From an uncultured Burkholderiales bacterium (lineage in GTDB: Bacteria > Pseudomonadota > Gammaproteobacteria > Burkholderiales > Burkholderiaceae_C), in the NCBI GenBank assembly GCA_903871545.1, contig CAIQHG010000068.1, positions 1-64,000 on the forward strand: a stretch of DNA of 64,000 nucleotides, read 5' to 3'. Numbering within the stretch: the first letter of the stretch is position 1; every line of letters begins with the position of its first letter. Both the position numbers and the translations under genes were made by a program. A model generated the notes under the pieces. The model ran no database searches and was not told the DNA's origin. It worked only from the letters and a program-made list of their open reading frames with translations. Positions 732 to 14,474 of the stretch are shown here, in pieces.

Positions 732-1604
732 TTAAACGGACAATTGTGTAATTTGCTTATCTATTTCCTCGGAGATTTTTAACTTTTGGCTTGCAGGGGA
801 TGAAAATTTGGCTGACTCTAAGAAGCTTCTTCTGCCCTTGGGAGTAGCAATAAAAGCTTGCTTCTGAATTCCTTTGATTCGCCATTCCTCTGCCAACTGA
901 TTGCTTAAATCCGCTCCGTATTTAGAGGTGCAACTTGCCAATATATCAGCCTCATTTAGAATAACTGTCGCCCAAAGCTTGTCAAGTTTGAACTCTAAAT
1001 TTTCTACTAATCTGTGATTGAGATTAACCACTTCGGGGTCCGTATTTTGAATTAAATAAATCATATCTAGCTGGTTTTTCATCTCAACCGAACACTCATT
1101 CCAAATTTCTTTTAGATGTGAGATCGTTAGATTTTCAATTTCCATGACCGTGTTATTGATCCCGCCCGGATGTCTGTAGTCATGGCAAATAACAGTTAAC
1201 AATAGCAAAGCAGTCCAATACTCATCAATGACCCCTTTTTTCTCCTTTTCTATCAAGAGTAATATACTCATACAAGTAAGTACATCTGAGAAATGTAGTC
1301 GGTTGTGGTACGGAGGTTCCCAAGTCAGAGCTACATTTTTTTCGATTTTTAGTGCAACTTCACGAGCACAATTTAATAAATTTAATACACTATTACTCAG
1401 ATGAGTATCTGAAAATACTGCGTCAATACATTCTTCTAAGACTTGGTCTAATCCTATCCAACTGCTGCGCCAAGAGTCCCTTAAAAACCCCAAAGAGGTA
1501 TTTAAAATATTGTTCCAATTATTATTTGTTGAAACGTTTAGATACTTGGACCGATCAATCAGGTGCGTCATCGATATTTGTTTTTCTACATTTAGCCAGT
1601 TCAT
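732..1604 (-). CDS. Class I (metazoan-type) 3',5'-cyclic nucleotide phosphodiesterase
   Basis: The 290-residue product carries the two signature blocks of class I cyclic nucleotide phosphodiesterases. YHNRLHFSDV at residues 99-108 supplies the catalytic and metal-binding histidines (H100, H104). HDYRHPGGIN at 141-150 is close to the family's HDxDHPGxxN (H141, D142 as metal ligands). NEAD at 217-220 provides a candidate last metal-ligand aspartate. It should hydrolyse cAMP and/or cGMP to the 5'-monophosphate in the cytoplasm, since no signal peptide or membrane segment is seen. The domain is shorter than the roughly 330-residue eukaryotic catalytic domain. The annotated start overlaps the preceding cNMP-binding gene by 50 bases; a second ATG at 1571 would cut the overlap to 17. 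Either way translation is probably coupled. Class I enzymes are uncommon in bacteria, where CpdA-type (class III) enzymes are usual. Confidence 0.8.
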   Translation of the reverse strand: MNWLNVEKQISMTHLIDRSKYLNVSTNNNWNNILNTSLGFLRDSWRSSWIGLDQVLEECIDAVFSDTHLSNSVLNLLNCAREVALKIEKNVALTWEPPYHNRLHFSDVLTCMSILLLIEKEKKGVIDEYWTALLLLTVICHDYRHPGGINNTVMEIENLTISHLKEIWNECSVEMKNQLDMIYLIQNTDPEVVNLNHRLVENLEFKLDKLWATVILNEADILASCTSKYGADLSNQLAEEWRIKGIQKQAFIATPKGRRSFLESAKFSSPASQKLKISEEIDKQITQLSV

Positions 1605-1929
1605 TGGTCATATTTTGTTGCAACAGTAGTGCTTCAAAAATTGGTATCAATAGATTTGATGTAGCACCAAGCAAAGAATTTGCGTCTTCGCTTGATATTT
1701 CTATACAAATAGCCTCGTCTACCGCTTTGACAGTTGCACCCCTGATACCGCCTATTAGAAAGGCTTGTTCTCCAAAAGATTGCCCTTTACTGATAGTGGA
1801 AATCAATCCACCACTTTCATCTAAAATCTGCAACTTTCCTTGTTTAACAAAGTACAGTTTGTCAGCTAGCTCACCAACCGTAAACACGATATGACCGGGT
1901 TGAAAACTGTTTTCTTTAAAGGTAGCCAT
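1555..1929 (-). CDS. Stand-alone cyclic nucleotide-binding domain protein
   Basis: This 124-residue protein is essentially one CRP-type cNMP-binding beta-roll with a short C-terminal helix. The beta-roll start (FQPGHIVFTVGELADKLYFV, about residues 9-28) and the phosphate-binding cassette with FGEQAF followed by an Arg (GGIRGATVKA) retain the Glu and Arg that contact ribose and cyclic phosphate. Ligand binding therefore looks intact. There is no helix-turn-helix, kinase or channel domain, so it is not a CRP/FNR transcription factor. It lies 10 bases after another cNMP-binding gene and its 3' end overlaps the phosphodiesterase gene. A role as regulatory subunit, sensor or sink in that circuit is inferred. 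Confidence 0.8.
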   Translation of the reverse strand: MATFKENSFQPGHIVFTVGELADKLYFVKQGKLQILDESGGLISTISKGQSFGEQAFLIGGIRGATVKAVDEAICIEISSEDANSLLGATSNLLIPIFEALLLQQNMTNELAKCRKTNIDDAPD

Positions 1930-1939
1930 TGTTAATGAA

Positions 1940-2413
1940 TTAAATGGGTAAATTAAGTGATCTATTTGCTAAATTCATAATAATTTTTTGGATAACACTC
2001 GGTAGCTTAGGTATAGCATGGATGATCTTGTTGATCGGCAATATACGAGCTTGGATAGGGGTCACGCAGATTATAGTTTTACTTGCACTAATTCCAATAA
2101 TTCCCTCTGCTAATCCAATAATTGATCCAGGTCCTAAGCGTTCTACTAAACGTCCATCCAAGCCTAGTGCGGTCCCAGAAACAATGAAGTAAGCGGACGT
2201 AATATCGTCGCCCTTTTGTATTATTTTCTGCTTTGAATCAAACATAGTTGAATTGAGATCCTTACACCCCCACAAGCTGAAATATAGTCTTTCATTGCTG
2301 TTTAATTTTCCAGATCGATAAATTTCCAAACTCTGGCTTGAGTTTGGATCAACTACACCGAGTCTGTGTAGATGCTCAATGTCTACTTGAAAACTACCGT
2401 TTATTTCTTCCAT
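1940..2413 (-). CDS. Divergent cyclic nucleotide-binding domain protein, first gene of the cassette
   Basis: The product is 157 residues. About 50 N-terminal residues without a recognised domain precede a cNMP-binding-like beta-roll beginning near FDSKQKIIQKGDDITSAYF. The phosphate cassette is degenerate. GLAEG keeps a Glu, but the expected Arg is missing (ISASKTII), so cyclic nucleotide binding may be weak, altered or lost. The C-terminus is helical (IPKLPSVIQKIIMNLANRS), like the dimerisation helix of CRP-family proteins, but no DNA-binding domain follows. It opens a run of three minus-strand genes with a 10-base gap to the next. Two tandem cNMP-binding proteins, one with and one without the canonical Arg, suggest division of labour, such as one binder and one structural partner. 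Confidence 0.7.
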   Translation of the reverse strand: MEEINGSFQVDIEHLHRLGVVDPNSSQSLEIYRSGKLNSNERLYFSLWGCKDLNSTMFDSKQKIIQKGDDITSAYFIVSGTALGLDGRLVERLGPGSIIGLAEGIIGISASKTIICVTPIQARILPINKIIHAIPKLPSVIQKIIMNLANRSLNLPI

Positions 2414-3109
2414 TTAATAGTACCTATGTTCTAAATTAACAATCGATTTTTGTTGCGTACTAACTCTCGACTTCATTATGCAACCTTACAGCCCATTTTG
2501 GATCTAATATTGGTCGGTATTTACTTAATTCGTATCAAAAGAGTCTACAAATGTCACCCCTAATGGAGCCACTTTAGCCCCTGAAGGCCCTTGCGAAAAC
2601 AAAAAACACCTGCATCATTCAGTTGGACTAGAAAACAGGTTTTGAGGTTGGGCGTGATAGTCAGTTCACCTCGAGTAAAAACTTTGTTTTGTCAAGTTTG
2701 TATTATTATGATACAAAATAGTTGCCACACAGTTTATTACACAATTTCCATTTATCAACGTAACTATATGATTTTTGAAAATCTTTCTAGAGCCTGGTAA
2801 GCTATTTAATTGCAAAAAGAGGAAAATCTTCAAAATAGCGTATAAAAAATCGCTTGAGATTTTACGCGTAAAAACATTTCTACTAATTGCACAGTTATTG
2901 CGCAGTTATTGCATAGTTAGTCCGCAGAAAATGACAATTTTAAATTTGTATCTTAATGATAAAATTATAGAATTGAAACGAAAACATCTTTGGCAACTGA
3001 CTTTTACAGTGGTTTGATAGCTTTTAGCACTGTGCCAAAAATATTCGTCGCAGTAGTACTGCACCTCCTCATTGTTCTTTTTTTGAAAACACCCGAAGTA
3101 CAATCAACC
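2414..3109. other. Gene-free stretch between divergent genes, about 700 bases
   Basis: A-T rich and without a convincing gene. Short open frames here lack family features and overlap each other. It must contain the promoters of the divergent cNMP cassette and lrgA. Near the lrgA side lies a threefold 11-base tandem repeat (listed separately). Confidence 0.5.
2889..2921. repeat. 11-bp tandem repeat, three copies
   Basis: Three adjoining units GCACAGTTATT, GCGCAGTTATT and GCATAGTTAGT lie about 190 bases upstream of lrgA. Each differs from its neighbour by one to three bases. It could be an activator or repressor binding array or a slippage product. Confidence 0.8.
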
Positions 3110-3454
3110 ATGTTATCAGGATTTATACAAATACTTTTTTTCCAAAGTTTGGGGGAATTGATTTCAAAACTTTTTTTGCAATCATTGCCCGGGCCTGTTA
3201 TTGGGCTAGTTCTTCTTTTATGTTGGTTAATTATTAAGAAGCAAGTCAATCCCTCTTTGGCCTTGGTTAGTGACTCGTTGAGTCAATACTTAGGCTTATT
3301 GTTTGTTCCCGCAGCCGTTGGAGTTGTTTTATTTTTACCTCAATTAAAAGAAAATGCAGCTGCTATTGCCTGCACATTGATTGGAAGTGTTGTTCTTACA
3401 ATAACAGCAAGTGCTTTGGTTTTAAGATTATTGGGTTCAGAAAAAAATGATTAA
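3110..3454 (+). CDS. lrgA: LrgA/CidA family holin-like membrane protein
   Basis: This small hydrophobic protein of 114 residues (from the ATG at 3110) has four predicted membrane segments. The conserved family stretch includes QSLPGPVIGLVLLL near residues 23-36, and LFVPAAVGVV near 60-69. CidA/LrgA proteins are holin-like and act with LrgB/CidB in murein hydrolase control or export of small metabolites. The open frame extends upstream to 2990, but those 40 residues are not part of the family, so the start at 3110 (MLSGFIQ) is preferred. Neither start has a strong ribosome-binding site. The 3' end overlaps lrgB by 8 bases, indicating one operon. Confidence 0.85.
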   Translation: MLSGFIQILFFQSLGELISKLFLQSLPGPVIGLVLLLCWLIIKKQVNPSLALVSDSLSQYLGLLFVPAAVGVVLFLPQLKENAAAIACTLIGSVVLTITASALVLRLLGSEKND

Positions 3455-4172
3455 GCCAAATTCAATCGTTGAAATCTGGGTATATCTTTCAGGCAGTCCA
3501 TTAATTGCCCTATTTACCACTTTGCTCGCTTATCAGATTGGATTAATTGCTTACCAAAAAACCAAACAAAATCCATTAATCAATCCAGTTGCAATAGCCG
3601 TCATCTTGGTGGCTTGCTTTATTCAATTAATTGACATGCCATACGACAAGTATTTTCAAGGAGCCCAGTTCATCCACTTTTTACTAGGCTCAGCTACCGT
3701 AGGCTTGGCAATTCCAATTTATCGTGGACTGGGGAGTTTAAAAAACAGGTTCATCCCACTCATTGCTGCATTACTGACAGGCGCTGCTATGTCAATTGCA
3801 AGCGCAGTTGGTATTTCAACTGTTTTAGGCGCAGATCAAAATATCATTGGTGCTTTTTATTCCAAGTCTGTCACAGCACCGATTGCAATGGGAATAGCGG
3901 AGAGAATTGGAACATCACCTACATTGACAGCTATTTTTGCCGTTTGCACTGGAATACTGGGTGCAATCTTGGCGCCATTTATTCTGAACTTATTGAATAT
4001 CAATCCGTGGTGGCAAAGGGGGTTTCCCATTGGAGTTGCATCTCATGGAATCGGAGCATCAAGGGCGTTCAGCATCAATGCGCAGGCCGGGACTTACGCG
4101 AGTTTAGCTATGGGCCTTCACGGCATACTGGGCTCATTAGCAATCCCATTTATTTATAAAATTTTTAACTGA
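3447..4172 (+). CDS. lrgB: LrgB/CidB family membrane protein
   Basis: The 241-residue product is hydrophobic throughout, with the usual LrgB length and signatures: NPLINPVAIAV near 38-48, AKPSATVGLAIPIY-like LLGSATVGLAIPIY near 79-92, and KSVTAPIAMGIAERIG near 139-154. The C-terminal SHGIGASRAF motif (about 199-208) is characteristic. LrgB partners with LrgA in the inner membrane. Plant and bacterial homologues are linked to export of glycolate, glycerate or pyruvate as well as autolysis control. It follows lrgA with an 8-base overlap. No LysR or LytR regulator is adjacent, so regulation cannot be read from this window. Confidence 0.9.
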   Translation: MIKPNSIVEIWVYLSGSPLIALFTTLLAYQIGLIAYQKTKQNPLINPVAIAVILVACFIQLIDMPYDKYFQGAQFIHFLLGSATVGLAIPIYRGLGSLKNRFIPLIAALLTGAAMSIASAVGISTVLGADQNIIGAFYSKSVTAPIAMGIAERIGTSPTLTAIFAVCTGILGAILAPFILNLLNINPWWQRGFPIGVASHGIGASRAFSINAQAGTYASLAMGLHGILGSLAIPFIYKIFN

Positions 4173-4543: not shown

Positions 4544-5686
4544 ATGAGCCTCAGCCATACTGATTATTTAAATTACAAAACCAGGGAATCCCCCGTCTTG
4601 CATGATTGGTTATACGACTCGGTTAAGCAAACCCAGCAAAATATTGATTCTTTATCAGACACGCAGTGGCACACTCCTGTCCTAGACATTGTCAATCTCC
4701 CAACTTGGGAGTTGGGCCATTTGACTTGGTTTCACGAGTTTTGGGTCCACCGACTCGGCCGTGCCTCTACTCCTAGCTGTTTTCAAAATGCGGATGAGCT
4801 ATTTAACTCCTCCCTCATCACGCACTCTGATAGATGGAGAGCGAAAATACCTCCCAAAGAGGATCTGAAGAGATACTTTAACCGGGTCATGCAACTAAGT
4901 TTTGATTTGTTGCAAGCAGACAAACTCAGTGCAGAACAAAAATATTTTTTAGAGCTATCCATTTATCACCAAGATATGCACAACGAGGCCTTCGCCTACA
5001 TGTGTCAAACACTTCAATACCCATGCCCCCAGAATTCTTCGGTGATTGGATACGTTGCAAAAGACTTTTCAGCAACAGGGAAATATCTAAATTTCCCCCA
5101 ACAAACCCTGCAAGTTGGATCTCAAAAAGATGGCTTTTTTATTTTCGACAATGAAAAATGGCAATTTCCGTTAAATATTAAAGCCTTCTCTGTTTCAAAG
5201 TTACCCGTCAGCAATCAAGAGTATTTAGAATACCTGCAGGCAAACTTGGAGGTAGAGAAACCAAAACACTGGAGGCGCGAAAATAATCGTTGGTATTTAT
5301 TTGAATTTCATCAATGGATTGAGCTTCCCCTAGACAATCCGCTTATTCATGTCTCCTTTGAGGAAGCTCAAAAATACTGTGAATGGAGAAACGAGCGCCT
5401 ACCCAGTGAGTTCGAAATGTTAGCGCTCCTAGAGTCAGATCCCGCCGAGTGGCAAGCCTCTGATTTGTGGGAGTGGACAAGTAGTTCGTTTTTACCGTTT
5501 GAGGGATTTCAGCCCGACCCGTACCTTGATTATTCTCAGCCCTGGTTTGGGGGGAGTTACAGGGTATTGAAAGGTTACAGTCGCTTCACCCCCAAGCGAC
5601 TAAGACGTCCTCAATTTAGAAATTTTTATCTACCCACTCGCTCCGATCCGTTTTGTGGGTTTAGAACCTGTCTAAAAGAAATTTAG
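4544..5686 (+). CDS. senA: SenA: selenoneine synthase (EgtB-like nonheme iron enzyme)
   Basis: This EgtB-type two-domain protein has 380 residues from the ATG at 4544. The N-terminal DinB-like domain supplies the iron site: H59 in WELGHLTWFHE and the HX3HXE motif HQDMHNE (H142, H146, E148), matching the spacing of EgtB ligands. The C-terminal formylglycine-enzyme-like domain ends with WEWTSS, a GGSYRV block and CGFRTC. EgtB makes the C-S bond of ergothioneine. The SenA branch instead joins selenium from 1-seleno-beta-D-glucose to hercynine. The SenA call rests on context: selD 51 bases downstream and senB within the same locus. An upstream frame to 4448 exists but lacks family sequence. No EgtD or other ergothioneine gene is in the window, so hercynine must come from elsewhere. 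Confidence 0.85.
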   Translation: MSLSHTDYLNYKTRESPVLHDWLYDSVKQTQQNIDSLSDTQWHTPVLDIVNLPTWELGHLTWFHEFWVHRLGRASTPSCFQNADELFNSSLITHSDRWRAKIPPKEDLKRYFNRVMQLSFDLLQADKLSAEQKYFLELSIYHQDMHNEAFAYMCQTLQYPCPQNSSVIGYVAKDFSATGKYLNFPQQTLQVGSQKDGFFIFDNEKWQFPLNIKAFSVSKLPVSNQEYLEYLQANLEVEKPKHWRRENNRWYLFEFHQWIELPLDNPLIHVSFEEAQKYCEWRNERLPSEFEMLALLESDPAEWQASDLWEWTSSSFLPFEGFQPDPYLDYSQPWFGGSYRVLKGYSRFTPKRLRRPQFRNFYLPTRSDPFCGFRTCLKEI

Positions 5687-5737
5687 TATCGTAAAAGTTA
5701 ATTCCTAAAACCCAGATAAACAAGAAGAAAGCAGACC

Positions 5738-6778
5738 ATGACCTATAACGGAAAACTCACCTCCCTGTCCCACGGCGGGGGATGCGGCTGCAAAATAGCC
5801 CCCGCCATCTTAAGCGATATCTTAAAGTCCACCCCCATTCGCATCATTCCACCAGAATTACTCGCTGGAACCGAAAACAATGAGGACGCCGCGGTTTACC
5901 AAATCAACGAGAACCAAGCAATCGTTGCGACCACTGACTTCTTTATGCCAATCGTGGACGATCCATACGAATTTGGTCGCATCGCTGCAACCAATGCTAT
6001 TTCAGACATTTATGCCATGGGAGCAAAGCCTTTGTTTGCTTTGGCTATTTTGGGTATGCCAATAAATACGTTGCCCCTAGATGTCATCCAAAAAATAACA
6101 ATGGGGGGAGAATCGGTTTGTGCCGAGGCAGGTATCATGATTGCAGGTGGACACTCAATTGATACAGTCGAGCCTATTTACGGGTTGGTTGCGATCGGTA
6201 TCGTGGACCCGAAAAGACTCAAACGCAACAACGCTGCAAAAGCCGGTGACAGCATCATTGTCAGCAAACCTTTGGGGGTCGGTATATTGTCTGCTGCCCT
6301 CAAAAGCGACAAACTCTCAGACAACGGCTACAAACAAATGATTGCTTATACAACCCAACTCAATAAACCCGGTATCGAGTTGTCTCAACTCGGCGGTGTT
6401 CACGCATTAACCGATATCACCGGTTTTGGTTTGGCCGGCCACCTGCTTGAGCTGTGCCGGGGTGCTAAGTTACAAGCCCAAATTGAGTGGTCGCACATAC
6501 CCGTCATTGAAGAGGCGGTAAGGCTAGTTAAAGAGGGTGTTTATACCGGTGCCTCAGCTCGCAATTGGTCAGGCTACGCAGAGGAAATTCAGACATCTGA
6601 GGCAATAGCTGATTGGCAAAAAAATCTTCTCTCGGACCCCCAAACCAGTGGTGGACTCTTGGTGTCCTGCGCGCCTGAGGAAGAGCGCCAAGTGCTAAAA
6701 ATACTGCACGACGCGGGCTTCCCCCATGCACAGAAAATTGGTAGCTTTCGCCCTGGCCAAGGTTTATCGGTTATTTAA
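5738..6778 (+). CDS. selD: Selenide, water dikinase (selenophosphate synthase; SenC role)
   Basis: The 346-residue product has the SelD/AIR-synthase fold. The glycine-rich N-terminus GGGCGCK carries the catalytic Cys16 and Lys19, equivalent to Cys17/Lys20 of the E. coli enzyme; this copy uses Cys, not selenocysteine. Other conserved blocks are DFFMPIVDDPYEFGRIAATN, SDIYAMGAKPLFAL, AGGHSID and DITGFGLAGHL, with TSGGLLVS near the end. It makes selenophosphate from selenide and ATP in the cytoplasm. Next to senA it should supply selenophosphate to SenB for selenosugar formation. No selA, selB, tRNA-Sec or ybbB gene is visible here, so use for Sec or selenouridine cannot be judged. The 51-base gap from senA includes an AAGAAGAAAG ribosome-binding region. 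Confidence 0.95.
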   Translation: MTYNGKLTSLSHGGGCGCKIAPAILSDILKSTPIRIIPPELLAGTENNEDAAVYQINENQAIVATTDFFMPIVDDPYEFGRIAATNAISDIYAMGAKPLFALAILGMPINTLPLDVIQKITMGGESVCAEAGIMIAGGHSIDTVEPIYGLVAIGIVDPKRLKRNNAAKAGDSIIVSKPLGVGILSAALKSDKLSDNGYKQMIAYTTQLNKPGIELSQLGGVHALTDITGFGLAGHLLELCRGAKLQAQIEWSHIPVIEEAVRLVKEGVYTGASARNWSGYAEEIQTSEAIADWQKNLLSDPQTSGGLLVSCAPEEERQVLKILHDAGFPHAQKIGSFRPGQGLSVI

Positions 6779-6818
6779 TTTAATCCTCCAACCCTTTCAC
6801 TCTAATTATCTTTAAATC

Positions 6819-7676
6819 ATGAAAAATACTGTTTTTAAAAACGTGCTCGCGCTCTTGCTAGTTGGGGTATCTTTTTGGGCGCATTCACAAAATGTGTTAC
6901 GCGTCTCCTCTATCCCAGACGAGGCACCCACTGAGCTGCAACGCAAATTTAAACCACTCGGCGAATACTTAACAAAAGAAACCGGCTTAAAAGTAGAGTT
7001 CACCCCCGTCACCGACTACGCCGCAGTCGTAGAGGCACTCGCTACCAGCAAAATTGATATGGCATGGTTGGGTGGATTTACCTACATCCAGGCCAAGCAA
7101 AGAACCAACGGGACAGCCAAACCCATTATTCAGCGCAAAGAGGATGCGACCTTTACATCTAAAATTATCGTTCCGCAAACCAGTTCAATTAAATCTCTCA
7201 GTGATTTAAAAGGCAAAGTATTCGCCTTTGGCTCGCCGTCCTCCACCTCAGGTCATTTAATGCCGCGCTCCTTTATGATGCAAAATGGCTTGAATCCTGA
7301 TGAAGACTTTAAGAATATTGCCTTTTCAGGTGCCCACGACGCAACCATCGCTTTTGTTGCCAGCGGTAAAGCAGAGGCAGGCGCACTCAACGCGTCCGTG
7401 TTGGATAAATTAACCGAAGCCCAAAACCCCAACGCCCTAAAAGTCAGAGTGCTTGCAACAACCCCGCCGTTTTTTGATTACAACTGGACCGTTCGAGGAG
7501 ACCTTGATCCCGCTGTTGTTAAAAAAATTACCGACGCATTCTTAAAGCTAGATGCAAGTAATCCAGAATACAAAGAGTTGATGGACTTACAAAGAACCAC
7601 CAAATACATAGAGACAAAGTCGTCCAACTACGACAATATCGAAAAAGCAGGTAAAGCAGCTGGATTGATTAAATAA
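6819..7676 (+). CDS. PhnD-like periplasmic binding protein, putative selenium-oxyanion ABC importer
   Basis: The product is 285 residues with a signal peptide (MKNTVFKNVLALLLVGVSFWAHS, cleaved near residue 23). The body is a phosphonate/phosphite-type solute-binding fold: LRVSSIPDEAPTELQRKFKP, then MAWLGGFTYIQA, and FGSPSSTSGHLMPRSFM, where Ser/Thr/His residues would hold an oxyanion. A PhnD subfamily adjoining selD is described as a putative selenate-binding component (TIGR04553). Position directly between selD and the ATPase/permease genes supports this. Phosphonate remains an alternative, but no phn lyase or phosphonatase genes are nearby. The stop overlaps the next start by one base. Confidence 0.8.
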   Translation: MKNTVFKNVLALLLVGVSFWAHSQNVLRVSSIPDEAPTELQRKFKPLGEYLTKETGLKVEFTPVTDYAAVVEALATSKIDMAWLGGFTYIQAKQRTNGTAKPIIQRKEDATFTSKIIVPQTSSIKSLSDLKGKVFAFGSPSSTSGHLMPRSFMMQNGLNPDEDFKNIAFSGAHDATIAFVASGKAEAGALNASVLDKLTEAQNPNALKVRVLATTPPFFDYNWTVRGDLDPAVVKKITDAFLKLDASNPEYKELMDLQRTTKYIETKSSNYDNIEKAGKAAGLIK

Positions 7677-8488
7677 TGGGTTTAGGTTTTTCTTTTGAAA
7701 AACTGGGCTATTCGCACTCTAAGGGCAAAGTCGCTCTACAGGGCATTGAACTCAGCGCAAACCCAGGCGAGCAAATGGCCATCGTTGGGCCGTCTGGGGC
7801 TGGGAAAACGACCTTTTTAAATATCCTAGCAACCGGCACCCGGCCCCTGGTTGGCCAAATCGAAATCCTCGGCAAAAGACCCTGGGAGCTCTCCAGCGTG
7901 GAGCTCAAAAAGCTTCGCTCCAAGATCGGCTTAATCCACCAAGCCCCACCACTGCCGCCCAAACAACGCGTGGTCACTGCTGTTCTCGCCGGTAAGCTTG
8001 GACAGTGGTCTACGCTTAAATCCATTATCTCGCTCCTTTATCCAGTGGACATCACAGGTGCCTACAACAGTTTGGCGCAACTCGATTTGGGCGAGCGACT
8101 CTTTGATCGGTGCGATCAGCTATCTGGGGGCCAACTCCAGCGCGTTGGGATTGCAAGAGTCCTATACCAAGAGCCAGAGCTCATGTTGGCAGATGAACCC
8201 GTCTCTGCTATGGACCCCGTGTTATCGGATTTGACGATCAAAAGATTGACACAATACGCGAGCGAAAAAGGGGTAACGTTCTTGGCTAGTTTGCACGATA
8301 TTGAAATAGCCCTTAAGTGGTTTCCTCGAATGATTGGGCTGCGGGAGGGGAAAATCATGTTTGATCTACCAACCCCAAAAGTTACTCAAAAACTCTTGCA
8401 AGAGTTGTACGCCTCAGAGATGGACGCCCCCGATCTTAATAGGTCCGCCCAATCCACGGCCGTGTTACAAAAGTCATCCAAGCTTTGA
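7676..8488 (+). CDS. PhnC-like ABC transporter ATPase
   Basis: The 270-residue ATP-binding subunit has Walker A GPSGAGKTT (about 38-46), Q-loop IHQAPPLPPKQ (about 85-95), signature LSGGQLQRVGIARVL (about 147-161), Walker B LMLADEPVSAMDP and the H-loop LASLHDIE. The overall pattern, including the VSAMDP after Walker B, is the PhnC type. It powers uptake of the ligand held by the preceding binding protein and pairs with two different permeases encoded next. Start ATG at 7676 overlaps the upstream stop (TAATG), so translation is coupled. Confidence 0.85.
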   Translation: MGLGFSFEKLGYSHSKGKVALQGIELSANPGEQMAIVGPSGAGKTTFLNILATGTRPLVGQIEILGKRPWELSSVELKKLRSKIGLIHQAPPLPPKQRVVTAVLAGKLGQWSTLKSIISLLYPVDITGAYNSLAQLDLGERLFDRCDQLSGGQLQRVGIARVLYQEPELMLADEPVSAMDPVLSDLTIKRLTQYASEKGVTFLASLHDIEIALKWFPRMIGLREGKIMFDLPTPKVTQKLLQELYASEMDAPDLNRSAQSTAVLQKSSKL

Positions 8489-8489
8489 C

Positions 8490-9323
8490 ATGCGACAAAC
8501 CATAAACGGCTCCATACACGATCCGGACGCTAAAAAACGGTTCCTCTATTTCGCTTTAGCGTTGACTTGTTTGTGGCCACTGCTGCAACTGGCTCAATTC
8601 AATCCCTTAGCCTTCTTTGATAGGTCTAATCTGGAGGTGATGGGGAACTTTTTGAACCAGTTTTTCCCGCCAAACGTTGAGCCCGGTTTTTTACAACTTG
8701 TTTTCAAAGCAACCCTTGAGACCTTGGCAATGGCAACGGCTGGGACTGCGCTTGCACTCTTGATTGCGGTGCCTCTTGGGCTGGCAATGACGTACAGCTT
8801 ATCGATTTCGCGCCTTGGGCCTGCTGATGGCCACGGGGTGAAGAAATTCGTACGCAGCATTGCCAGGCTCTTGATGGTGGTTTTGCGCGGGATCCCAGAG
8901 ATCGTTTGGGCGTTGCTATTTGTGCGCGTGTTTGGATTAGGGGCTGTCGCCGGGGTCACGGCTATTTCGATTACGTACGGCGGTATGTTAGCTAAAGTGT
9001 ATGCAGAGATTTTAGAGTCAAGCAACAGCCAAGTGTCCCGCGCTTTAATACTCGCGGGGAGTGGGCGAGGCAGTGCATTTTTATACGGACTCTTGCCCGG
9101 CTCGGCGCAGGAGCTTGCGTCCTATACGGTCTACCGCTGGGAGGCGGCTGTTAGGGCCTCCGTTATCATGGGATTTGTGGGAGCAGGGGGTCTTGGCCAA
9201 CTCATGGACCAGTCCATGAAAATGCTCAACGGCAGCGAGGTTTCAACAATCTTGATCGTATTTTTGGTGCTTGTGTTGTTCGCTGATTATTTAAGTTGGT
9301 ACGTGAGAAAGCAACTCGAATGA
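8490..9323 (+). CDS. PhnE-like ABC permease, first of two
   Basis: An integral membrane permease of 277 residues from the ATG at 8490, which follows the ATPase stop by one base. A longer frame from 8334 runs inside the ATPase gene and encodes no family sequence. The phosphonate-type permease domain is clear: FKATLETLAMATAGTALAL, the RGIPEIVWALLFVRVFG block, and the EAA-like loop with ILAGSGRGSAFLYGLLPG. YRWEAAVRASVIMGFVGAGGLGQ marks the C-terminal half. Two consecutive PhnE-type permeases imply a heterodimeric channel. Confidence 0.85.
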   Translation: MRQTINGSIHDPDAKKRFLYFALALTCLWPLLQLAQFNPLAFFDRSNLEVMGNFLNQFFPPNVEPGFLQLVFKATLETLAMATAGTALALLIAVPLGLAMTYSLSISRLGPADGHGVKKFVRSIARLLMVVLRGIPEIVWALLFVRVFGLGAVAGVTAISITYGGMLAKVYAEILESSNSQVSRALILAGSGRGSAFLYGLLPGSAQELASYTVYRWEAAVRASVIMGFVGAGGLGQLMDQSMKMLNGSEVSTILIVFLVLVLFADYLSWYVRKQLE

Positions 9324-10114
9324 ACATTCAACCCGCACGCCAATTTTGTTTCAAATGCCTCATCAATCTTGCCTGTCTGATATTGGCGGTAGGGTGGAGT
9401 TTTGCTTACCTATCATTTAACCCATTTAGTTTTTTTACCCCCGAGTCTGCGTCTCAATTGGCGCTCTATGCAAAACGGTTTTTCCCACCAGATGTTCACA
9501 GTGCATTTTTACTGAAAATTTTAAAAGCAACGTTTGAGACGATTGCCATTTCTGCAATAGCTACTTTGTTGGCAACCGTCATCAGCTTGCTCTTGGCTGT
9601 ACCCGCCGCTGGTAAATACGGCAAAAAGACCAAAGAGGTGACACGCTTTTTCTTTAATTTTTTACGCTCTGTCCCAGAGTTAGTCTTCGCAACCATTTTA
9701 GTGCTCGCAGTCGGGCTCGGCCCTTTTGCTGGCACCTTAGCGTTGATGCTGCACACCACAGGTGTCCTTGGTAGGTTATTTGGGGAGGCCCTAGAAAATC
9801 ATCCCCCCAAAAATGCTCAAGCACTTTTACTCAACGGCTCAAGCGGCGCGCAGGCCTTTTTGTACGGGACCCTACCCGGAGTCACCGCCCAGTTCGTCTC
9901 CTACGCCTTGTACCGCTGGGAGATGAATATCCGTATGGCAACTATCCTCGGTTTTGTAGGGGCGGGTGGGCTGGGTCAAATGCTCTACTACGAACTCTCC
10001 CTACTGCGTGAACCCCGTGCAGCAAGCATAATCATTGCCATGCTCATACTCGTTGTATTGGTAGACTTCATCAGCAATAAGCTGCGTTTGGTGCAAATGC
10101 ACACCCAGGGCTGA
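9320..10114 (+). CDS. PhnE-like ABC permease, second of two
   Basis: This 264-residue permease starts at the ATG at 9320, which overlaps the previous stop in ATGA. It is a divergent paralogue of the preceding gene with the same blocks: LKATFETIAISAIATLLA, RSVPELVFATILVLAVGLG, LLNGSSGAQAFLYGTLPG and YRWEMNIRMATILGFVGAGGLGQ. It ends only 14 bases from the convergent senB gene, closing the transport part of the selenium locus. A longer upstream start (9296) would sit within the neighbouring gene and is less likely. Confidence 0.85.
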   Translation: MNIQPARQFCFKCLINLACLILAVGWSFAYLSFNPFSFFTPESASQLALYAKRFFPPDVHSAFLLKILKATFETIAISAIATLLATVISLLLAVPAAGKYGKKTKEVTRFFFNFLRSVPELVFATILVLAVGLGPFAGTLALMLHTTGVLGRLFGEALENHPPKNAQALLLNGSSGAQAFLYGTLPGVTAQFVSYALYRWEMNIRMATILGFVGAGGLGQMLYYELSLLREPRAASIIIAMLILVVLVDFISNKLRLVQMHTQG

Positions 10115-10128
10115 AAACGCCTTTTCTT

Positions 10129-11085
10129 TTAAACCAGAGTTCTTAGCAGTTCGCCAATGGACTGCATCTCGCGCTCCGGTTGAATCAAACTTGAGCGAGC
10201 GCTCACCTCTTTCACCAACTGATCATAAAAATGAGGCTGCTCTTCTGCCTTTTGAAGAACCTGCTGCAGGGCTGCTGTGTCCCCCACTTCGTAATAACCT
10301 GAATAATCCGCTCCTAAGAGTCCCCGGTTACCCGCAATATTGGACGCAATCACAGGCACACCGATTGCAATGGCCTCGGACACGACGTGGGCACCCCCTT
10401 CCATTAAACTGGAGATCACCATCAACCTTGAGCGCGACAAATACTGCATGGCCACGCTGTGCGAGACTTCCCCGTACCAGTGGTATCTGGGCTCGTTTGC
10501 GTTAAAAAACTCTGCCTGAGCAGTCATCTCTTCGCTCATTGATTTACCCAGGTGAATCACTTTTATGTTGCTCTCTTTTGCAAGCCCTTGGAGTGCCCGC
10601 GCTGCGCGAAAGGGGTCCTTCTCTGGGCGAAGGTGCCCAATCACGCAAACCTCAAAATCTGGCTGCAAAGCAGACTGTCTTTGAGTCGCTTTATGCGACT
10701 GATAGATTACCCGTGTCTTTTTGTGAAATTGCGCTGGTAAATCTTGAACGGCATCTTGTTGCAAAACCACAATCTCGTTTGCAAGTTGCATGGACTCAAT
10801 TACTTGTGCAAACTCACCCTGATCTCTGTATATATCCGTCCCTGTCATGATCAGTACTACGGGGGTAAGAGGGAAAGTTTGTTTAAATTTTTTGATTGAT
10901 GCGTGACTGCGCTTAGCATGAAGAGCAATCAAACAATCTACTGGCTCTGCGGACCACTCTTCATGAATGTGAGCACTGTACCCCAGTTGCTCAATAAAAC
11001 CAGCCCAGCGTAGAGCAGTCATGCGGTTTCCGTGCAAACTCCCCCGCTGGGCGGGCGTAATAATTTGGATTAAAGGTTTACTCAT
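10129..11085 (-). CDS. senB: SenB: selenosugar synthase, GT-B glycosyltransferase (TIGR04348 type)
   Basis: The 318-residue product has the GT-B fold. The N-terminal motif (ITPAQRGSLHGNRMTALRWA, about 9-28) is characteristic of the TIGR04348 family now known as SenB. A GT4-like C-terminal domain shows IGHLRPEKDPFRAARAL (about 169-185) and the donor-binding motif EGGAHVVSEAIAIGVPVIAS. SenB joins selenophosphate to a UDP-sugar, giving 1-seleno-beta-D-glucose for SenA. It is transcribed towards the transporter genes rather than with senA-selD, so the locus consists of two converging units with SenB under its own promoter. No signal peptide; cytoplasmic. Confidence 0.9.
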   Translation of the reverse strand: MSKPLIQIITPAQRGSLHGNRMTALRWAGFIEQLGYSAHIHEEWSAEPVDCLIALHAKRSHASIKKFKQTFPLTPVVLIMTGTDIYRDQGEFAQVIESMQLANEIVVLQQDAVQDLPAQFHKKTRVIYQSHKATQRQSALQPDFEVCVIGHLRPEKDPFRAARALQGLAKESNIKVIHLGKSMSEEMTAQAEFFNANEPRYHWYGEVSHSVAMQYLSRSRLMVISSLMEGGAHVVSEAIAIGVPVIASNIAGNRGLLGADYSGYYEVGDTAALQQVLQKAEEQPHFYDQLVKEVSARSSLIQPEREMQSIGELLRTLV

Positions 11086-12974: not shown

Positions 12975-14474
12975 TCACGCAATTCTCAAAAGGGGAGCGC
13001 TGTTGATAGCTCGGTATCCAAACCGGTTGTCCAAAGATTCCTCCAAAGAGAGATCCCGCTCGACTCTGTGCTCACTGTAGTGCTCCTCAATAGCGATTGA
13101 TATTTCACTCAAGTTAACGCCGTATTTACCGGCCATCTCAAGCCTAAATGAGGGGAACTCTTTGGCGTGCGGGTTTTGCTCTAAACTTTGTTGCACTTGG
13201 GAGAGCTTACAGCCGTGCTCAATCACGCACCTCACCCCAAACGAGACCATGGATTCATAAGTGTGTTGGTGTCTAGCTACTTTATAAATGGACAAGGTAT
13301 CGATGCGCTCTGCCGCTCGAATCTGACCCTTGACTGCGGGATCCACCACGATGGCCTCTACTACGGGCACTTTGCCATTTTTAGGGCCTACATTCTCCGT
13401 GATGTGATCCATGTAAATCCCGTTCTTTGAAAGCCACGATCTTTCATCTAAAGTCAACTCTCGTTTGACTGCGGGTCCCTCATACGTGTTGAGTAGTCTT
13501 TGAGCCAGTACAAGGGTCAAACTCTCGGAGAGCCTAAATGCATCCGCTTTTAACTGGCTCATACGTTGAAGCGTATTGTGGGCGTCATTGGCGTGGACGG
13601 TGGCAAAGACCAGATGCCCCGTGTTGGCGGCCTCAATCGCTGCGTCCATCGTCTCCTTGTCCCTGATCTCACCCACCAAGATCAATTGGGGGTCGAGCCG
13701 CAGCGTTGCTCGCAAAGCCGTGGCAAAGGTGATCTCACCCCTGACCTGAATCTGTTTGACGGGAGCCCCTTTCTTGAAGATCTTGAACTCAACCGGGTTT
13801 TCAATAGTGACAACGGATTTGGAGCCATCGTTAAGGCATTGAAAGACCGCGTTGAGAAGGGTTGATTTACCAGATCCCGTAGGTCCGCTAATCACCACAA
13901 AACCGCTCGGCGCCCTGCATATTTGCATAATGGTGCTGCTGAGTAAATGGGGCAGTTTAAGGTTTTCAAATTTTGGTGTGGTTTGTGGGTCAATAAGGCG
14001 ACACGTGAACGCAAGCCCTGAGAAGGTCTCAATATACTCAACCCTAAAATTAACGCAGTAGGGGAGACTGGGCAGGGGCTTTAATCCAAACTCAAGCGCA
14101 AAATCCTCGGGCAACTGCACCTTAAAACCAGCGGACCAGTTGACCCCCTCTACGGCTCCACCCATGAAGTTACACAAACTAAAGACCCGCTCCTTAATTT
14201 CTTTGCCTTTGTCGACCAAGTTCTCAACCGATTGAAAGTCCTCCCCGTCTCGAATGAATATGTGGGTTTCGTGTGCGCCTGCGCACACTTCTATCTCAAT
14301 GTGAATGTCACTGTAGCCTCGGATGATTGTGTAGATAATGATTTTTCGCAGCAACGCCTCATTCTTTCGCGTCACGTTTACCAACAGTATCTTGTTGGCC
14401 TCAACCTCACTGAGCGAATTAAAGTAATCCGAGACCCTCGAGAATAGAGGGTTGTCTATTAGGTTAGTATTCAT
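12975..14474 (-). CDS. GspE/PilB/PilT-superfamily secretion ATPase
   Basis: The 499-residue ATPase has an N-terminal domain with SDIHIE (about 55-60), the mark of the family. Then come Walker A GPTGSGKST (197-205), an Asp box (VTIENPVEF), Walker B LILVGEIRD (264-272) and the His box GHLVFATVHAND (286-297). It lacks the tetracysteine zinc motif of GspE/PilB, so it is closer to PilT or plasmid/ICE PilQ-like ATPases. Such hexamers drive pilus or secretion dynamics at the inner membrane. No pilin, platform, prepilin peptidase or secretin gene is present in the window. It heads a minus-strand pair with the CXXS protein and diverges from the Sel1-repeat gene. Confidence 0.85.
   Translation of the reverse strand: MNTNLIDNPLFSRVSDYFNSLSEVEANKILLVNVTRKNEALLRKIIIYTIIRGYSDIHIEIEVCAGAHETHIFIRDGEDFQSVENLVDKGKEIKERVFSLCNFMGGAVEGVNWSAGFKVQLPEDFALEFGLKPLPSLPYCVNFRVEYIETFSGLAFTCRLIDPQTTPKFENLKLPHLLSSTIMQICRAPSGFVVISGPTGSGKSTLLNAVFQCLNDGSKSVVTIENPVEFKIFKKGAPVKQIQVRGEITFATALRATLRLDPQLILVGEIRDKETMDAAIEAANTGHLVFATVHANDAHNTLQRMSQLKADAFRLSESLTLVLAQRLLNTYEGPAVKRELTLDERSWLSKNGIYMDHITENVGPKNGKVPVVEAIVVDPAVKGQIRAAERIDTLSIYKVARHQHTYESMVSFGVRCVIEHGCKLSQVQQSLEQNPHAKEFPSFRLEMAGKYGVNLSEISIAIEEHYSEHRVERDLSLEESLDNRFGYRAINSAPLLRIA

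Follow-up and report, generated by a model that had tools for sequence, protein, structure and literature searches.

A candidate selenoneine biosynthesis cluster with a putative selenium oxyanion importer in an uncultured Burkholderiales bacterium

Examining a window of 64,000 nucleotides (positions 1 to 64,000 of contig CAIQHG010000068.1, here C68, in GenBank assembly GCA_903871545.1 of an uncultured Burkholderiales bacterium), we found that seven open reading frames (ORFs) occupying positions 4544-11085 combine genes of the selenoneine pathway with those of an ATP-binding cassette (ABC) importer. The assembly comprises 3.56 Mb in 93 contigs and is rated 100% complete, and the nearest named relatives at the locus are Polynucleobacter and Burkholderiaceae, a group to which the bacterium therefore probably belongs. 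Six ORFs lie on the plus strand, with neighbours overlapping by up to 4 bases or separated by up to 51 bases, and the seventh, senB, faces them from the minus strand. They are senA (4544..5686, +), encoding a selenoneine synthase homologue, a non-haem iron enzyme of 380 amino acids; selD (5738..6778, +), encoding a selenophosphate synthetase of 346 amino acids in the senC role (TIGR00476, 420 bits, cut-off 125); the genes for the periplasmic binding protein of the importer (6819..7676, +; 285 amino acids, TIGR04553 family), its ATPase (7676..8488, +; 270 amino acids; PF00005; TIGR02315, 208 bits, below the cut-off of 266) and two PhnE-like permeases, A (8490..9323, +; PF00528; TIGR01097, 196 bits, below the cut-off of 216.7) and B (9320..10114, +; 245 bits against the same profile and cut-off); and senB (10129..11085, -), encoding a selenosugar synthase of 318 amino acids (TIGR04348, 385 bits, cut-off 300). 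The ATG of permease A at 8490 is one base past the ATPase stop, the two permease genes overlap by 4 bases, and 14 bases separate permease B from the convergent senB. We infer that the six plus-strand genes are co-transcribed. Curated cut-offs are passed by SelD, SenB, the binding protein and permease B, and missed by SenA, permease A and the ATPase. A sequence-only reading of this DNA had described senA, selD, a complete ABC importer with two distinct permeases between selD and senB, and a convergent TIGR04348-type senB in one block, and all of these are present there as ORFs.

Two enzymes of the SenA/EgtB type are encoded in the genome, SenA in the window and a homologue on contig C21. The latter is an EgtB by profile (TIGR03440, 470 bits, cut-off 360), scores 353 bits against the solved EgtB of Chloracidobacterium, and its gene overlaps by 11 bases an egtD whose product matches EgtD (TIGR03438, 327 bits, cut-off 290.9). 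A phylogenetic tree based on homologues from the fetched loci only (90 rows, with six dropped before the build, namely five overlapping ORFs of loci already represented and one copy of the window gene; the C21 EgtB is present twice) places the window SenA inside a 57-row SenA/OvsA clade (support 100/99) and the C21 homologue inside an EgtB clade of 21 rows (support 100/100). Closest to the window SenA is L121 (100/99), followed by L163 and L072, and senB is present in all three loci. The single OvsA row, which is the engineered 8ux5 chain and differs from wild type at three positions, sits elsewhere within the 57-row clade. Moreover, the window SenA has the clade letter in all 19 columns that separate the SenA/OvsA clade from EgtB and agrees in 58 of the 64 columns that are 90% conserved within that clade. 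On its clade placement and these discriminating columns, we rejected an EgtB identity of the window gene; the SenA assignment made from the sequence alone is borne out, as are the iron ligands H59, H142 and H146, found where they had been placed. This three-His site (HHH) occurs in 84/84 aligned rows and hence is common to EgtB.

The window SenA carries a hercynine-type triad, Y330, N360 and F361, at sites occupied by M, Q and A in wild-type OvsA, and the Y/N/F triad is found in 46 of the 57 SenA/OvsA clade rows and in all 21 EgtB rows. Because of this triad, the iron ligands and the clade placement, selenoneine is the expected product of the enzyme as judged from its sequence. An enzyme making ovoselenol or another selenohistidine instead would agree with the top sequence match in the PDB, an OvsA chain (8ux5, 175.1 bits) that ranks above SenA (168.1 bits), with the long branch of the window SenA, and with similar Foldseek template-modelling scores to OvsA (up to 0.87) and SenA (0.85), obtained for an AlphaFold (AF2) model with a predicted local distance difference test (pLDDT) score of 86.7. 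However, 8ux5 is an engineered OvsA in which the three sites hold Y, N and F, its PDB title describes hercynine binding and selenoneine-biosynthetic activity, and wild-type OvsA (8u41) scores 166.6 bits, below SenA. In addition, Foldseek ranks SenA of Variovorax paradoxus (8ryz) first by E-value, followed by OvsA and then EgtB, and egtD lies within the same cluster in L195, L197, L198 and L121, the last of which is profile-confirmed (340 bits, cut-off 290.9). We rejected ovoselenol as the product on the basis of the triad and the first Foldseek match, and such an enzyme is highly improbable here. Four SenA-clade enzymes (L175, L180, L184 and L185), which come from other orders and from loci that include senB, have Y/T/Y in place of Y/N/F, and their acceptor may differ.

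The key residues N20, T23, K158 and E231 and the EGGAHV of V. paradoxus SenB are matched in the alignment of the window SenB, the roles of these residues being given in the excerpts consulted of PMC10891094. A divergent form of SenB, scoring 173-229 bits and thus under the TIGR04348 cut-off, occurs in one family (f17), at L148 and L149 and in genomes G016, G227, G199, G138, G063, G105 and G170; at L149, it adjoins senA, selD and egtD. The selD of the window locus is the sole full SelD match in the assembly, one other match reaching E 4e-4 at 27% identity. SelA has no match in the genome at E 1e-60, with no sign of selenocysteine, and a selenouridine synthase is matched (E 4e-103), which is likely a second selenium user and SelD client. 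Thus, selenoneine and tRNA selenouridine would be the destinations of selenium in this genome. "Self-contained", as the locus had been called, is too strong a term, since the selenouridine synthase probably shares SelD and since egtD lies on another contig, so that hercynine would be supplied from elsewhere.

The binding protein scores 350 bits against TIGR04553 (cut-off 250), a family that NCBIfam names "putative selenate ABC transporter substrate-binding protein", and its 195.8 bits against the PhnD equivalog TIGR03431 do not reach the cut-off of 261.1. PhnJ (PF06007) has no match in this genome (G000), which led us to reject phosphonate import via C-P lyase; it is matched in 7 of the 54 genomes with TIGR04553. 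The closest folds to the AF2 model (pLDDT 93.9) are PhnD1 of Prochlorococcus and Synechococcus (5lq8, 7s6g, 5lq5), then PtxB. According to the excerpts consulted of Bisson et al. 2017 (PMC5700983), phosphite in Pm_PhnD is held by Y46, S126, T127, S128, H158 and D205, F90 is close by, and D13 and N176 brace a capping Y206; phosphate and methylphosphonate are bound at least 2,000-fold more weakly (182 uM for phosphate vs 0.051 uM for phosphite). At 35% identity to Pm_PhnD, the window protein retains all ten of these contact and cap residues (Y67, S142, T143, S144, H173, D220, F112, Y221, D34 and N191), of which Y67, S142, H173 and Y221 are invariant in 38/38 aligned family rows (the window protein and 37 of 52 extracted proteins). 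E108 replaces I86 of Pm_PhnD in all 38 rows as well as in L282, L283 and L285, whose genomes all have SenB; in L284 (G393), where the genome lacks SenB and the 10-kb stretch shows no selenium gene, Q stands at this position. An amide, N or Q at position 222, replaces H207 in selenium-linked binding proteins. A coupled swap divides the rows into two subfamilies, 23 rows carrying D34/N191/D220 and 13 carrying E34/D191/N220; the other two match neither pattern. A TIGR04553-scoring protein from a genome with no selenium marker (L147, G190) has STS changed to SAA and F112 changed to H in the pocket, possibly reflecting a change of ligand.

If a pocket favours pyramidal ions and leaves room for no more than a hydrogen on the fourth side, it should suit selenite, whose lone pair would lie there, better than tetrahedral selenate. 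Since the phosphite-type pocket is retained and selenite is pyramidal like phosphite, we predict that the ligand is selenite rather than selenate; by shape, sulfite too would fit, and it is the genomic context rather than the pocket shape that points to selenium as the ligand element. Uptake of selenate, which the cell would activate and reduce, accords with the NCBIfam name and with the close relative 7s6g, solved with phosphate, a tetrahedral ion, but the window protein retains the capping Tyr as well as the residues that contact phosphite, and a fourth oxygen is disfavoured in such pockets, as the affinities of Pm_PhnD in the cited excerpts show. We therefore regard selenate import as unlikely, and from the earlier prediction of a selenate-binding PhnD subfamily beside selD, we keep the TIGR04553 membership and give less weight to the selenate. 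An importer for an organic selenium compound, for selenoneine or ergothioneine itself, or for hercynine would explain its position among product genes, and the consulted part of PMC9732360 describes a bacterial ABC transporter specific for ergothioneine. However, the window protein has the capping Tyr221 and STS-H pocket by which, in the source excerpts, PtxB and Pm_PhnD keep out any group bigger than H; on these features, we rejected a bulky organic ligand, and there is hardly any likelihood left for such an importer.

The pocket itself leaves room for a phosphite (or phosphate) importer that sits in the cluster by chance, because, of the 12 residues in the pocket string, only E35 and N222 depart from phosphite-specific Pm_PhnD and because the nearest solved folds, PhnD1 and PtxB, have methylphosphonate, phosphate or phosphite as ligand. 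Gene neighbourhoods argue against chance. Among the named loci, which are the best 80 of 566 relatives, lean to close kin and extend up to 10 kb on each side, 34 have a selenium gene in the stretch (selD in 28, senB in 18, selU in 10, selA in 9 and egtD in 3). Several gene orders recur, namely selD- senB- senA+ ABC+ in 10 loci, senA+ selD+ ABC+ egtD+ senB- in 3, senA- senB+ ABC+ in 3, senA- senB+ selD+ ABC+ in 2, and selD- ABC+ selU+, with or without upstream selA+, in 8. Two permeases are usual, with permease A matched in 77 and permease B in 74 of the 80 stretches, and L121 has the window gene order plus egtD. All 53 other TIGR04553 loci within the order yield selD in 11, senB in 6, egtD in 5, selU in 2 and selA in 1, so that selD, senB, selU or selA is found in 12 of these loci, many stretches ending at contig ends. 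Outside the order, the ABC genes adjoin senB in G357 (L282) and G385 (L283), two of the four TIGR04553 loci there; the binding proteins of these two loci score 390 and 381 bits against TIGR04553. In a small control from the same survey, none of seven PtxB/PhnD-like loci scoring below the cut-off has a selenium gene nearby (seven of eight such matches, the eighth, a fragment in G101, being left out). Given this recurrent linkage to senB, selD, selU and selA, the control and the co-occurrence of TIGR04553 with selenium use described below, a chance phosphite importer is quite improbable. In a quick tree of 145 binding proteins, senB linkage needs 15 changes, at least 11 of them forced by starred branches, a count that loci shortened by contig ends and wrongly labelled as having none may inflate; gain or loss of the link between importer and senB seems to have occurred on many occasions. 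When the neighbouring ORFs were clustered, many proved to be overlapping antisense ORFs, and one cluster resembled formate dehydrogenase; an ORF like its alpha subunit (TIGR01591, 468 bits, below the cut-off of 666) lies near the TIGR04553 operon in 10 loci, e.g., L225:15509-18505.

Mapping importer and selenium use across 250 genomes of one order, which are related to each other so that p values ignore kinship, we found matches over cut-off for TIGR04553 in 54 genomes, SenB in 73, SelA in 72 and SelU in 181 (the co-occurrence counts use 183 SelU genomes at E 1e-40, two of them under cut-off). Among the 54 genomes with TIGR04553, SenB is found in 30 (33 with seven sub-cut-off variants), SelU in 51 and SelA in 27. 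At least one of SenB, SelA and SelU is present in 52 of these 54 genomes vs 134 of the 196 without TIGR04553 (p 6e-6, uncorrected for kinship), and only 2 of the 64 genomes without a selenium marker have TIGR04553, one being the L147 genome mentioned above. In 182 further genomes of the class, outside the order, TIGR04553 occurs in 4, SenB in 11 and both in 3 (p 6.5e-4), with G414, at 239.7 bits just under the TIGR04553 cut-off, excluded from the 4; in G368, the ABC genes and senB are 114 kb apart.

Taken together, the operon-like spacing, the clade and triad of SenA, the co-occurrence of TIGR04553 with selenium use, the recurrent linkage to selenium genes, the pocket and the lack of a PhnJ match in the genome suggest that the locus is probably a selenoneine cluster equipped with a selenium supply of its own, in which the importer would take up a small inorganic selenium oxyanion, most likely selenite. 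The import-to-product character that the sequence-only reading ascribed to the locus is thus well founded, given the SenA clade and a TIGR04553-type ABC set that turns up repeatedly near selenium genes, in several arrangements, in and outside the order. Several observations weigh against this interpretation. SenA, at 357.1 bits, misses the NF041186 equivalog cut-off of 420, as do other SenA homologues adjacent to senB (e.g., G211 at 359.7 and G120 at 351.7), and its branch is long (0.84). No selenium gene is seen in the stretches of 46 of the 80 named loci, and selD, senB, selU and selA are all missing from those of 41 of the 53 in-order loci, many stretches in both sets being shortened, in the latter by contig ends. 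The binding proteins of L282, L283 and L285 are 32-34% identical to that of the window, no closer than Pm_PhnD, and so the linkage in other orders speaks for the family at large, not for the window protein. TIGR04553 is not found in 43 of the 73 SenB genomes, which means that selenoneine genomes do not require the importer; as 21 of the 54 TIGR04553 genomes also have no SenB, variants included, the importer is not linked exclusively to selenoneine. Finally, on the pocket alone, phosphite fits as well as selenite, and the NCBIfam label of the family says selenate.

In the mechanism that we propose for the selenoneine cluster, the ABC importer would capture a selenium oxyanion, most likely selenite, in the periplasm and move it inside, where the cell would reduce selenite to selenide. 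SelD would convert selenide to selenophosphate, SenB would attach the selenium to a UDP-sugar to form a selenosugar, and SenA would join the selenosugar to hercynine, made by the EgtD encoded elsewhere in the genome, presumably yielding selenoneine. The same SelD pool probably also supplies 2-selenouridine in tRNA.

Around the sen locus, a LrgA/CidA and LrgB/CidB pair (PF03788, PF04172) lies on the same strand at 2990-4172, about 370 bases upstream of senA, and the stretch 732-2413 (-) holds a PDEase_I-like ORF and two ORFs matching a cyclic-nucleotide-binding domain, one of them just below the Pfam cut-off, with a guanine-cytosine content of about 37% vs 48% in the sen locus. Downstream, at 12975-14474 (-), is a T2SSE ATPase of a type II/IV secretion system (PF00437). 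An Rfam scan of the whole 64-kb window gave no match at gathering score, and no known riboswitch was found.

The selenoneine pathway enzymes are already known, and TIGR04553 is already named a putative selenate binder by NCBIfam. In the literature searched, we found no paper naming TIGR04553 and, in the portions of it that were available, none linking an ABC importer to selenoneine biosynthesis, the primary selenoneine and ovoselenol papers being outside the scope of this search. According to the consulted sections of two reviews, a high-affinity selenium importer has yet to be identified in prokaryotes (PMC9312934, PMC13188914). With evenly balanced confidence, we propose that TIGR04553 with its ATPase and two permeases may be this missing dedicated importer in many Burkholderiales-type bacteria and some wider relatives, in which a phosphite-type pocket would have been reused for pyramidal selenite and repeatedly wired into selenoneine, selenouridine and selenocysteine clusters. 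The window locus offers a compact candidate for selenium import, the role of which can be read from the cluster product; if the proposal is true, loss of the importer would lead to less selenoneine at low selenite. The sharp prediction of selenite over selenate makes the long-open question of bacterial selenium import directly testable, and it is relevant to the way in which bacteria provide the selenium for selenoneine, an antioxidant.

Compared with the selenoneine pathway of V. paradoxus (SenA, SenB and SenC/SelD), the same three enzyme activities are expected from the sequences at the window locus, where the fold of SenA matches 8ryz and 8k5j at about 28% identity in the fold alignment; in contrast to that pathway, an ABC importer stands between selD and senB here, and senB is convergent. 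The order senA-selD-ABC-egtD with convergent senB in Polynucleobacter (L197 and L198), a Burkholderiaceae metagenome-assembled genome (L195) and L121 is that of the window except for egtD, which in these loci lies between permease B and senB, whereas the window genome has it on another contig; their binding proteins are 73-76% identical to that of the window. Like other TIGR04553 binding proteins, the window protein is above the family cut-off and adjoins selD, and here it is found inside a sen operon. With Prochlorococcus PhnD1 (5lq5, 5lq8) and PtxB, it has in common the fold and the ten Pm_PhnD contact and cap residues, but it differs from them in the changes of I86 to E108 and of H207 to N222, in its position near selenium genes and in coming from a genome without a PhnJ match.

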